Positions 9,729 to 13,977 of a stretch of 64,000 nucleotides of DNA are shown piece after piece. Within the stretch, counting starts at the first letter, position 1. Each line of letters opens with the position of its first letter. Location: contig NZ_HG964497.1 of the NCBI RefSeq assembly GCF_000613125.1, forward strand, positions 3,178,971 through 3,242,970, written 5' to 3'. Origin of the DNA: Bacillus sp. EB01 (lineage in GTDB: Bacteria > Bacillota > Bacilli > Bacillales > Cytobacillaceae). A program made the position numbers and the translations under genes. Below the pieces are notes generated by a model. It worked only from the letters and a program-made list of their open reading frames with translations, was not told the DNA's origin and ran no database searches.

Positions 9729-11060
9729 ATGAAAATTACTGTTGCTGGAACTGGGTATGTAGGACTGGTAAATGGAGTTTGCCTTGCGGAAATGGGATAC
9801 GAAGTCGTTTGCATTGATACAGACGAAACAAAAATCAACACATTGCAAAAAGGGATTTCGACGATTTATGAACCTGGCCTTGAAGGACTTCTCAAGAAAA
9901 ACAGCAAATCCGGCAGCCTCCGCTTTACACTAAACCCGCGGGAAGCCTATTCCGATGCCGACGTCATCATCATTGCTGTCGGTACACCTGAGAACAGTGA
10001 TGGATCAGTAAATTTGGAATATATTTTTTCAGCCTCTTATACAATTGCAGCACATATGGAGAAGGATGCAGTCATTTGTACAAGGAGTACTGTCCCAGTC
10101 GGCACGAATGCACAAATCGAGGAAATCATTGCTCGATTAACACCTCCACCCCTTCGCGCACATGTAGTTTCACTGCCAGAGTTTCTTCGTGAAGGCTCTG
10201 CAATCTTTGACTTCTTTAATGGTGACCGAGTTATCATTGGTGCGGCTAATGAGAAAGCTGCTGACGTGATTGAAGGACTTTTTCTTCCATTAAACATTCC
10301 TATTGCAAAAACAGACCGAAATAGTGCCGAAATGATTAAGTATGCAGCGAACGCGTTTCTTGCGACAAAGATTAGTTTCATTAATGAGATTGCGGCACTG
10401 TGCGAAAAAGTCGAAGCCGATATTGACGAAGTAGCCAACGGAATTGGAATGGATGGCAGAATTGGGCCACACTTCCTACGGGCGGGAATCGGATATGGCG
10501 GTTCCTGCTTCCCTAAAGACACCAAAGCCCTGCTTAAACTCGCCGGAAATATGGAACACCCTTTCATGCTTCTTCAATCCGTTATTGAAGTTAACAACAA
10601 ACAGCATTCACTTCCTGTCGCAAAAGCAAAAAAGGCAGCCGGATCACTTGCCGGAAAAAAGGTTGCCGTACTTGGCTTATCTTACAAGCCTGATACAGAT
10701 GACATAAGAGAGTCCGCTTCAATCAGGATTATCCAGGAGCTGCTGGATGAAGGCGCAAAAGTGATAGCCTATGATCCTTCAGCAGTCCCAAATGCCAAAA
10801 GGTTGTTCGGGGATGCAATCGATTATACCCTTGATATCCGTAAGGCATTATCTGATGCTGAAACAGCGATCATCGCGACGGACTGGGACCAAATCAGGCA
10901 TCTTCAGCCATCCGTATTTGCTTCTTATATGAAAGAGCCCATCCTTATCGATGGCCGTAATTGCTTTTCGCCTGAAAGAATGAGACTTGAACCCATTACG
11001 TATATATCAATTGGCAGGCCGGCACTGCTCAAGGAAAAATCAAGCGCTTCTTTTAACTGA
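9729..11060 (+). CDS. ugd: UDP-glucose 6-dehydrogenase
   Basis: A 443-residue enzyme that oxidises UDP-glucose twice with NAD+ to UDP-glucuronate. The Rossmann motif GTGYVGL is at residues 7-13, the EFLREGSAI substrate loop follows in the middle, and the catalytic Cys is residue 260 in GGSCFPKD. The C-terminal UDP-binding domain (GLSYKPDTDDIRESAS) is intact. Length matches the family (TuaD of B. subtilis). Ribosome site GGGAGG. A GT4 glycosyltransferase starts 97 bp downstream, so the glucuronate probably feeds a surface polymer or glycolipid. No other teichuronic-acid genes are in view. Confidence 0.95.
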   Translation: MKITVAGTGYVGLVNGVCLAEMGYEVVCIDTDETKINTLQKGISTIYEPGLEGLLKKNSKSGSLRFTLNPREAYSDADVIIIAVGTPENSDGSVNLEYIFSASYTIAAHMEKDAVICTRSTVPVGTNAQIEEIIARLTPPPLRAHVVSLPEFLREGSAIFDFFNGDRVIIGAANEKAADVIEGLFLPLNIPIAKTDRNSAEMIKYAANAFLATKISFINEIAALCEKVEADIDEVANGIGMDGRIGPHFLRAGIGYGGSCFPKDTKALLKLAGNMEHPFMLLQSVIEVNNKQHSLPVAKAKKAAGSLAGKKVAVLGLSYKPDTDDIRESASIRIIQELLDEGAKVIAYDPSAVPNAKRLFGDAIDYTLDIRKALSDAETAIIATDWDQIRHLQPSVFASYMKEPILIDGRNCFSPERMRLEPITYISIGRPALLKEKSSASFN

Positions 11061-11157
11061 TTTTATCCTGTATTTTCACACCCAGACCCTGCTTGAAGGC
11101 ACCAATGTATTGCTTGGATTTAGGATGTCCTAATTCGATTGATGCCAGGAGGTCAGT

Positions 11158-12297
11158 ATGAAAATTGCTATTTTTACGGACACGTATCATCCGGATATGA
11201 ATGGGGTTGCGCGGACACTGAAGCGTCTTTCCGATTATTTGGAGGGCCAAAATATTACATGTAAAATTTTCGCTCCAAAAAGTCCATCTGAATATGTGGC
11301 AGACAATCTTCATCAGTTCGCCAGCCTTTCTTTATTTCTTTATCCGGAGTGCCGGCTGGCATTCCCCAATCTTATCAATGTAAAGACAGAACTCGAGCGT
11401 TTTTCACCAGACTTGATCCATGTTGCCACACCATTCAATATTGGGTTCTGCGGCGCTTATTTTTCAAAAAAAATGAATATCCCTTTGGTTGGTTCGTATC
11501 ATACCGACTTTGACCAGTATTTAAACTATTACAATCTTGAATTCTTATCAAACTATTTATGGAGGTATATGGCCTGGTTCCACAAACCCTTCCAGAAACT
11601 ATATGTCCCTTCATTAGAAACATTGAACCAGTTGCAGCAGCGCGGTTTCTCTAATCTGGAACTTTGGGGAAGGGGCGTTGATTGCAGCCTCTTCCATCCA
11701 AACTATAACAAATTGTCGGGGCGTATGCGATATCACGCAGGCAATAAAGTCATTTTCAGCTATGCCGGACGGCTGGCGCCTGAGAAAGATCTCAATACGC
11801 TCATGAGTGTTGCCACCTCCCTGCCCAAGGCGATTCAGGAGAAAATCCAGTGGATCATTGTAGGCGACGGCCCGGAGCGGGAGGAGTTAGAAGCACAGGC
11901 TCCCCGAAATATGCTTTTTACCGGTTATTTAAAAGGGGAAAAGCTGGCTGAGGTATATTCGATATCAGATGTGTTTGTTTTCCCTTCTCCGACAGAAACA
12001 TTCGGAAATGTCGTCCTTGAGGCACTAGCAAGCGGGACCCCGGTTGTATGCGCGAATTCAGGTGGAGTGAAACACCTCGTCAAAGACGGGATAAGCGGAT
12101 TTCTATGCGAGCCCGGCAATCCTGAAAGTTTCAAGAAAGCACTATTAACATTGATGAACAACCCTTCCCTCCTTCGCTCGATGGGACAGCAAGGAAGAAA
12201 CTTTGCCCTCACCCAAAAGTGGGACACGATACTCGCTTCCCTTGTATGGTCCTATCGGGATGTCATTGAAGCCAAGGTTGAAAGAAAATATGCGTAA
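11158..12297 (+). CDS. GT4 family glycosyltransferase
   Basis: A 379-residue GT-B glycosyltransferase. The N-terminus shows FTDTYHPDMNGVARTL (residues 6-21), as in MgtA-like lipid or mannosyl transferases; GSYHTDFDQY follows at about 115-124. The C-terminal donor domain has YAGRLAPEKD and the E-x7-E motif in PTETFGNVVLEALASG. The family retains anomeric configuration and uses NDP-sugars. AGGAGG ribosome site. Its position behind ugd suggests transfer of glucose or glucuronate to a membrane lipid or polymer; donor and acceptor are inferred, not shown. Confidence 0.88.
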   Translation: MKIAIFTDTYHPDMNGVARTLKRLSDYLEGQNITCKIFAPKSPSEYVADNLHQFASLSLFLYPECRLAFPNLINVKTELERFSPDLIHVATPFNIGFCGAYFSKKMNIPLVGSYHTDFDQYLNYYNLEFLSNYLWRYMAWFHKPFQKLYVPSLETLNQLQQRGFSNLELWGRGVDCSLFHPNYNKLSGRMRYHAGNKVIFSYAGRLAPEKDLNTLMSVATSLPKAIQEKIQWIIVGDGPEREELEAQAPRNMLFTGYLKGEKLAEVYSISDVFVFPSPTETFGNVVLEALASGTPVVCANSGGVKHLVKDGISGFLCEPGNPESFKKALLTLMNNPSLLRSMGQQGRNFALTQKWDTILASLVWSYRDVIEAKVERKYA

Positions 12298-12451: not shown

Positions 12452-12488
12452 CATTGAAAATAAACCCGGCTGCAATGGCAGCCGGGTT
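12452..12488 (-). terminator. Terminator of the yedE-yedF operon
   Basis: Perfect 11-bp stem AACCCGGCTGC / GCAGCCGGGTT around four bases; the minus-strand tail is TTTATTTTC. It lies 14 bp after the yedF stop. Confidence 0.9.
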
Positions 12489-12501: not shown

Positions 12502-12747
12502 TTATTTTACTACCTTAATGTAAAAGTATATATCCTGCCCGTATTTCTCGGGTTCTGCCATGAGCTGATAGCCGTGCTTGACGGCTTCTTCAGGAACACT
12601 GCGGAATGATTGCGGACAGTCTGCGATGACTTGCAGCACTTCTCCGATTTTCATAGTTTTTAGCGCATCCAGCGCATAAATGACGGGGTACGGTCAAGGC
12701 TCGCCCCGAATGTCGAGTGTATAGTTAACATCAATTATTTGTGACAC
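12502..12747 (-). CDS. yedF: YedF/TusA-family protein with in-frame TGA at the catalytic Cys: candidate selenoprotein
   Basis: Reading TGA through, this is an 81-residue one-domain TusA/SirA-like protein: TLDIRGEP-[TGA]-PYPVIYALDALK, then IADCPQS and HGYQ, ending in TAA. In YedF/TusA relatives the TGA position is the invariant catalytic cysteine of the CPxP motif, which carries sulfur or selenium. The TGA is codon 18 (12694-12696). The frame is otherwise intact, with an AAAGGAGG site eight bases before the GTG and a start only 3 bp after the yedE stop. A SECIS-like hairpin follows the TGA. Two explanations are open: selenocysteine insertion, or a TGC/TGT-to-TGA null mutation (or read error). 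The gene is not decayed anywhere else. Confidence 0.75.
12663..12696 (-). promoter_or_regulatory. Candidate bacterial SECIS element after the yedF TGA
   Basis: Numbering from the U of UGA, bases 22-25 and 31-34 form a GCGC/GCGC stem closing the five-base loop UGGAU. A UUU/AAA pairing can extend it below a 2x2 internal loop. Loop distance (about 22 bases after UGA), small size and G in the first two loop bases fit the loose bacterial SECIS pattern. The stem is short, so this is suggestive only. Confidence 0.4.
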
Positions 12748-12750
12748 GGT

Positions 12751-13977
12751 TTATGCCTCCTTTGTAACGTGAGTAAGCTTCTGGGACTTCTGAAGCTTGA
12801 TGCCTGAGCCGTAACGGAATCGTTTTTCCCACCAGGAGGATAGGAGGAACCAGGCAACAAGCATGGCAATGGTTCCGAATAGCGCGCCCATTGGCCCCCA
12901 CTCTTCGATTAGATTTACTTTCGGATAATTTTCCACAAGGGCATTGTAAATGCCAAGATGGTCCCAGCCATATGCAAGTGCGGTTGCACCGATGATATTG
13001 CCTGCGAACACTACCCAGTATAACAGCTGGCCTTCCATTGCCCGGTACATCATGCCTGTCTCACAGCCTCCTGCAAGGACGATCCCGAAACCGAACAGCA
13101 ATCCGCCGATCGCTGTACTTGGCGCAGCTACTTTAATCAGGGCAAGTGAGCCGCTTTGAATATAGAAGAATGTCACGATAACACTGATCAGCATCCCAAC
13201 GGCAATTGCTTTAGACATCATCGCGCGGCCGCTGATCCACATGTCGCGGAAAGCGGATGTGAAACAAATTTGCCCGCGTTCAATCAGGATTCCGAACAAA
13301 GCGCCTGCGATACAGGCTACTCCAAGCATGGTTTTCCCCGCCGCAAAGAAATAAATGATAAGTGCGAGATAAAGCAACGCGACAATCAGACCGATGACAG
13401 GCTGAACCTTTTCGTTTTGTGCTTTTGGTTTTGAAGGTTTCATCGGCCCTTTCATTAAGGACGGTTTCCCGAGCCACCATTTGGTGTTGACGACTTTCAC
13501 ACCAAAGTAAGTTCCGATGGCAGTGGTCACCATAAAAATCCAGGAATGAAACGAGAATTGAGGAACTCCTGTGAAAAAGGCAGCAAGATTACAGCCAAGT
13601 GCAAGCCGGGCTCCAAATCCAGCAATGATTCCGCCAGTAAATCCTTGAACGAGGCGACGCTTTTGTTTCGGTACACGAATCTTGAAACTGTTGCTGAGCA
13701 AAATCGTAATCGCCGCGCCAACCAGCATCCCGATGACAATCCAGCCGTCGGTCCGGCTTATCGGAGTCCCTTCTAGACCGACCAGGCCGAAATACGCCCA
13801 ATCGGAAACATCCGCTCCGAACCATTCGAGCATATGGCCGCCAAACCTGGTAAATTCCCCGGTAACCGCCCAAACCGTCCCGGTAATCCCAAAGTACAAA
13901 GCACTGACCAAACCCGCAATGCTGATTGCAATGTAAGGATTCCAGTAATTCTTAAATATTTTTTGATAAAGACTCAT
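12751..13977 (-). CDS. yedE: YedE/FdhT-type selenium (sulfur) transport membrane protein
   Basis: A 408-residue, multi-helix YeeE/YedE family membrane protein. Conserved cysteine motifs are visible: GARLALGCNLAAFFTG, ERGQICFTSAFRDMW and GGCETGMMYRAMEGQ, and the N-terminus (YFGITGTVWAVTGEF) closely follows E. coli YedE. YeeE relatives import thiosulfate; YedE/FdhT is linked by genome context to selenium metabolism. The ATG at 13977 has a GGAGG site eight bases away; an upstream frame start at 14022 is unlikely. The yedF ribosome site is inside the last codons of this gene, so the pair is translationally close. Confidence 0.9.
   Translation of the reverse strand: MSLYQKIFKNYWNPYIAISIAGLVSALYFGITGTVWAVTGEFTRFGGHMLEWFGADVSDWAYFGLVGLEGTPISRTDGWIVIGMLVGAAITILLSNSFKIRVPKQKRRLVQGFTGGIIAGFGARLALGCNLAAFFTGVPQFSFHSWIFMVTTAIGTYFGVKVVNTKWWLGKPSLMKGPMKPSKPKAQNEKVQPVIGLIVALLYLALIIYFFAAGKTMLGVACIAGALFGILIERGQICFTSAFRDMWISGRAMMSKAIAVGMLISVIVTFFYIQSGSLALIKVAAPSTAIGGLLFGFGIVLAGGCETGMMYRAMEGQLLYWVVFAGNIIGATALAYGWDHLGIYNALVENYPKVNLIEEWGPMGALFGTIAMLVAWFLLSSWWEKRFRYGSGIKLQKSQKLTHVTKEA

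Follow-up and report, generated by a model that had tools for sequence, protein, structure and literature searches.

The window analysed here, a stretch of 64,000 nucleotides from Bacillus sp. EB01, carries a small gene of the YedF family (yedF, fdhU-like; 12502..12747, minus strand). The gene runs as a single frame from a GTG at 12747 to a TAA at 12504-12502 and encodes 81 residues when one internal TGA is read through. This TGA (12696-12694) is the sole in-frame stop within yedF and lies in the cysteine slot of the CPYP motif. The product reads VSQIIDVNYTLDIRGEP-U-PYPVIYALDALK..., with a predicted selenocysteine (Sec) at residue 18, and the catalytic CPxP motif takes the form U-P-Y-P, Sec standing in for Cys. 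An 81-codon frame intact except for a TGA at the CPYP cysteine, as described in the original prediction, is thus what the locus holds. The read-through frame scored 103 bits against the NCBIfam YedF model NF008242 (cut-off 79) and 71 bits against Pfam TusA, and Escherichia coli YedF (PDB 1je3) matched the protein with 65 bits. The two-domain selenium YedF model TIGR03527 (SirA-like and DsrE-like) gave 25.5 bits, below its cut-off of 110; the TusA domain is the only domain of that model present here. At this position the ORF lister returned just a 50-codon internal frame from the ATG at 12654, the start that a standard pipeline had been expected to choose, and ordinary ORF calling misses or shortens yedF in these Bacilli.

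Upstream in the same operon lies yedE (fdhT; 12751..13977, minus strand), which encodes a membrane protein of 408 residues scoring 564.5 bits against NF033796 (selen_YedE_FdhT; cut-off 350). The yedE stop codon (12753-12751) is separated from the yedF start by a gap of 3 nt, and the yedF ribosome-binding site AAAGGAGG (12763-12756, minus strand) overlaps the 3' end of yedE; both the strong ribosome site and the 3-bp spacing had been claimed beforehand and were recovered. Downstream of yedF, an intrinsic terminator hairpin with an 11-bp stem (12463..12488, minus strand; fold of 66 nt at -21.9 kcal/mol) is followed by TTTATTTT. The arrangement is common, as yedE is found directly upstream in nearly all related yedF loci. 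At six loci a neighbouring LysR protein scored above the cut-off of NF040786 (selenium-metabolism LysR), and the loci of 15 relatives contain, close to yedE, a distinct gene corresponding to the DsrE (C-terminal) half of TIGR03527, the model having been run on two of these genes and the others grouped by BLAST. One genome of the same genus (G007:C1:4111500-4119500; L133) carries a second, 5'-divergent yedF copy about 2.4 kb away with unrelated ORFs in between, and both copies retain the TGA and the hairpin that follows it.

The distribution of the TGA form was determined in two overlapping searches. Among the source genome and 200 relatives (201 genomes), 33 gave a strong match to YedF that contained a single TGA. 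The second search, using one genome per species (GTDB 220), yielded 69 named loci; the YedF Cys codon was TGA in 52 of these and TGC or TGT in the other 17. The TGA form occurs in Cytobacillus, Neobacillus, Mesobacillus, Robertmurraya, Litchfieldia, Schinkia, Calidifontibacillus, Siminovitchia, Aneurinibacillus, Brevibacillus, Tumebacillus, and Bacillus methanolicus, and the Cys form in Heyndrickxia, Paenibacillus, Cohnella, Pullulanibacillus, Paradesulfitobacterium, one Aneurinibacillus, and others. Both the TGA and the hairpin persist across genera and families, in more than 50 species of Bacilli. In a phylum-wide sample of 398 genomes (matches at E 1e-12), the TGA form was found nowhere except in the source genome, and Sec-YedF therefore looks confined to Bacillales-like lineages. 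No YedF relative was found in the viral contigs searched. Plasmid matches, assessed by identity, were all below 60% and came from enterobacteria, Ligilactobacillus, and Haloarcula.

The alignment of close relatives that had been proposed as a check returned a TGA conserved in many of them and TGC or TGT in others. Further inactivating changes, named originally as the sign that would speak against a functional gene, were absent from those TGA relatives for which a residue-level alignment was made. Downstream of the TGA, pN ranged from 0.02 to 0.14 and pS from 0.37 to 0.79 in comparisons with seven relatives; for the five nearer relatives, the ranges were 0.02-0.08 and 0.37-0.79, respectively. 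Purifying selection on the yedF region past the TGA is strong.

The UGA is followed within the coding sequence by a SECIS-like hairpin, UUUA[U]GCGC-UGGAU-GCGCUAAA (12659..12680, minus strand). It consists of a 4-bp upper stem (12675-12672/12666-12663), a 5-nt loop (12671-12667) starting 22 nt past the UGA, a bulged U (12676), and a weak A-U lower stem. The GCGC hairpin with a UGGAU loop about 22 bases past the UGA that had been predicted corresponds to GCGC-UGGAU-GCGC at 12675-12663. Its folding energy alone is unremarkable and not decisive (-9.7 kcal/mol for 48 nt, z = -1.7; 10 of 200 shuffles folded equally well), and the case for the hairpin rests on evolution rather than on energy. The 4-bp stem is kept in all 55 TGA sequences, fully Watson-Crick in 54 and with a G-U pair in one, as opposed to none of the 17 Cys (TGC/TGT) homologues. 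The loop is UGGA plus one base in all TGA sequences compared. In Schinkia and two related assemblies, and separately in Tumebacillus flagellatus, the stem GCGC/GCGC has changed to ACGC/GCGU. The MAG UBA7792 (L117 3052-3099) has GCAC/GUGC, where an Ala-to-Val change in the 3' arm is balanced by a silent change in the 5' arm; this genome represents a clean natural compensatory mutant of the hairpin.

Three base pairs of the hairpin have undergone double compensatory changes. In the Sec alignment, 96.1% of the pair cells were paired compared to a shuffled mean of 92.6, and the covariation score exceeded that of all 500 shuffles. When the partner column was slid by one to three positions as a control, pairing dropped to at most 60%, and the Cys-form alignment subjected to the same pairing test was equal to its shuffles. 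The synonymous codons are frozen as well: codons +7 to +10 after the TGA are GCG, CTG, GAT, and GCG nearly without exception, while most yedF codons outside the hairpin vary freely and, in the adjacent yedE genes, GCG makes up 17% of the Ala codons and CTG 14% of the Leu codons. The yedF hairpin is under selection as RNA. With regard to the SECIS scan suggested along with the original prediction, stem, loop, spacing, and energy lie within the constraints of the published bacterial SECIS model, to which the compensatory changes are added.

All four components whose presence had been proposed as a check (selA, selB, selC, and selD) are encoded in the closed, 5.28-Mb source genome: tRNA-Sec (65 bits; called by ARAGORN as tRNA-SeC with anticodon tca), SelA (572 bits), SelB (359 bits, cut-off 242), and SelD (406 bits). 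The SelD gene (L053 about 10157-11197, plus strand; G000:C1:1138156-1139196) adjoins the divergently encoded selA and contains an in-frame TGA in STKAG-U-GCKIGP, and SelD is itself a predicted selenoprotein. Two genes for formate dehydrogenase alpha (FdhA) have a TGA at the Sec site (L055 7218-9275, plus strand; L056 9631-6647, minus strand), and after each comes a hairpin whose loop is GGUCU. Since tRNA-Sec, SelA, SelB, and SelD occur together with genes carrying TGA at Sec sites, Sec decoding is in place in this genome, with at least three predicted Sec genes other than yedF. The tRNA-Sec gene is located directly beside a tyrosine recombinase gene (L011 6474-7770; G000:C1 about 252473-253769), and more recombinase-like genes lie near selC, as if a mobile element had integrated there.

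SelB scored above cut-off in 141 of the 201 genomes, and all 33 genomes with the TGA form were among these 141 (one-sided P of 2e-6 in a simple count that ignores relatedness). In the named set, SelB was found in 17 of 17 Sec genomes tested versus 7 of 17 Cys genomes; the remaining 10 Cys genomes had only lower-scoring, EF-Tu-sized matches to SelB. Because seven Cys-form genomes retain SelB, we concluded that Sec is favoured but not obligatory in YedF. In one relative with a TGA-yedF (G067:C1:3155721-3156956), three TGA and two TAA codons occur inside the span of the SelB match, reflecting either sequencing errors or a decaying SelB. A yedE tree requires three Sec/Cys changes and is compatible with one gain and two losses of Sec; as this tree was built quickly and contains some long branches, the direction of change is provisional. 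The Paenibacillus/Cohnella clade, whose genomes are without SelB, accounts for one implied loss.

The loss of the hairpin in Cys forms, the compensatory changes, the frozen codons, and the co-occurrence with SelB together make the predicted insertion of Sec at the yedF UGA near certain. SelB with Sec-tRNA-Sec would bind the yedF hairpin and Sec would be inserted at the UGA, yielding a product of 81 residues and about 9 kDa. As the full explanation, we consider it highly probable that the YedF made from this gene is a selenoprotein. The original claim that Sec replaces the catalytic cysteine is in this way supported by the conserved TGA, the SECIS-like hairpin, and the Sec machinery, and now stands more firmly than when it was put forward.

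Three other readings of the TGA were weighed against this one. As ordinary ORF calling breaks yedF at the TGA, the codon might be a nonsense mutation and yedF a decayed gene. However, dozens of species have the identical TGA at this codon, selection past it is strongly purifying, and the aligned relatives are without other damage, leaving a pseudogene with a vanishingly small probability. It is also extremely improbable that the true product is a 50-residue protein initiated at the internal ATG at 12654, with no translation through the upstream part. This ATG is found in all Sec forms and is the choice pipelines would make, but the sequence preceding the TGA shows conservation at the protein level, RGEP-x-PYP motif included, and of 52 Sec loci, 48 have a Shine-Dalgarno motif ahead of the full-length start and one has it ahead of the internal ATG. 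In addition, a 50-residue product would be without the catalytic site of the fold. Finally, a suppressor, such as a near-cognate tRNA for Trp or Cys, might decode the UGA while the hairpin serves, for example, translational pausing. In favour of such a reading, the Sec at the UGA is a prediction from the sequence. Against it, the hairpin vanishes exactly where the codon is TGC or TGT, TGA forms were found only in SelB-positive genomes among those examined, the hairpin agrees in position and loop with the bacterial SECIS model, and the same genome contains other Sec genes with similar hairpins; we regard it as very unlikely. Pseudogene, internal start, and plain stop were each rejected as candidates on the basis of conservation and ribosome-site placement.

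The TusA/SirA/YedF family is absent from the 87 families of a selenoprotein list of 2022 (PMC9312934), from the 119 families of a list of 2026 that includes GenBank-annotated families (PMC13188914), and from the deep-Sep predictions (PMC12013277). In related open-access literature, YedF is treated only as a selenium-associated protein. Given its absence from the catalogues of 2022 and 2026, Sec-YedF looks like an uncatalogued selenoprotein family as far as the open-access literature is concerned, earlier annotation in protein databases being possible. It would enlarge the prokaryotic selenoproteome by one family, found in a common group of soil Bacilli. So far, the link between YedE-YedF and selenium has come only from genome context and a small number of knock-outs. 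A catalytic-site Sec that is kept over dozens of species, with Cys in some lineages without SelB, would constitute strong independent evidence for selenium or high-reactivity sulfur chemistry at this site, and Sec-YedF would offer a 9-kDa labelable handle on the chemistry of the pair.

As to the function of the pair, the structure of YeeE-YeeD has demonstrated that the CPxP cysteine of YeeD takes thiosulfate from YeeE (PMC11073785). In an alignment to the YeeE structure, Cys 238, 305, and 129 of YedE correspond to the relay cysteines C22, C91, and C293 of YeeE, respectively. Because YeeE-YeeD is the closest solved pair and YedE retains all three relay cysteines, we favour, with moderate confidence and by analogy, a selenium uptake and relay pair in which selenium would pass from YedE to the YedF selenolate and on to SelD. 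YedE would provide a membrane path related to the thiosulfate path of YeeE, and Sec-YedF would dock on the inner face of YedE in the way YeeD docks on YeeE. There, the YedF selenolate would attack the incoming selenium (or selenium-sulfur) species and carry selenium onward. The recipient would probably be the selenophosphate synthase SelD, here a predicted Sec protein, which in turn would supply the two Sec formate dehydrogenases. The step of selenium acquisition would thus itself depend on selenium. We tentatively extend this to many Bacilli, where selenium-dependent acquisition by a YedF selenolate that takes selenium from the YedE path and passes it to Sec-SelD might form a self-reinforcing loop, with the yedF UGA also reporting selenium status; this broader scheme is possible but doubtful.

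Alternatively, Sec-YedF may be real but relay no imported selenium, acting instead in an FdhU-like maturation of formate dehydrogenase or, with YedE, in selenium export or detoxification. Context and knock-outs have tied YedE/YedF to SelD and to formate dehydrogenase, the latter as the selenium-dependent enzyme linked to FdhT/FdhU of Campylobacter, and a role of YedE in selenium export has been suggested as well (PMC5322559). Deletion of yedE in Methanococcus maripaludis resulted in no clear selenium-transport phenotype (PMC11097638), and the source genome encodes two Sec-FdhA proteins. On the other hand, the nearest relatives of known structure are a thiosulfate importer and the TusA-type protein that partners it. 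A role specific to FdhA is also at odds with the persistence of Cys-form yedEF in genomes without SelB, which indicates that the role of the pair is wider than Sec formate dehydrogenase. We consider a function other than the relay of imported selenium quite plausible, though it is not the reading we prefer.

Compared to known systems, YedF of E. coli (1je3; NF008242) belongs to the same family by sequence and shares the CPxP site and the yedE-yedF pairing; however, it has Cys at the position where the gene described here encodes Sec and has a hairpin within the coding sequence. The resemblance to FdhT/FdhU of Campylobacter jejuni lies in YedE, which scores far above the selen_YedE_FdhT cut-off, and in the occurrence of both two-gene pairs in genomes with a Sec formate dehydrogenase. 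In contrast to the predicted Sec-YedF, a Sec form of FdhU goes unmentioned in the related open-access literature. Rhodanese-like and DsrE-like selenoproteins and the Sec form of YeeE/YedE transporters are likewise sulfur-handling proteins in which Sec occupies the position of the reactive Cys, but these known sulfur-transfer selenoproteins belong to folds or families different from that of YedF. The thiosulfate uptake pair YeeE-YeeD (TsuA-TsuB) also combines a transporter with a TusA-family partner bearing a catalytic CPxP residue, and its three relay cysteines all occur in YedE. It differs in that the substrate of YedE-YedF is presumably selenium rather than thiosulfate, in that Sec takes the place of Cys, and in the opposite order of the YedE halves: residues 220-333 align to YeeE 4-119 and residues 68-157 to YeeE 233-321.
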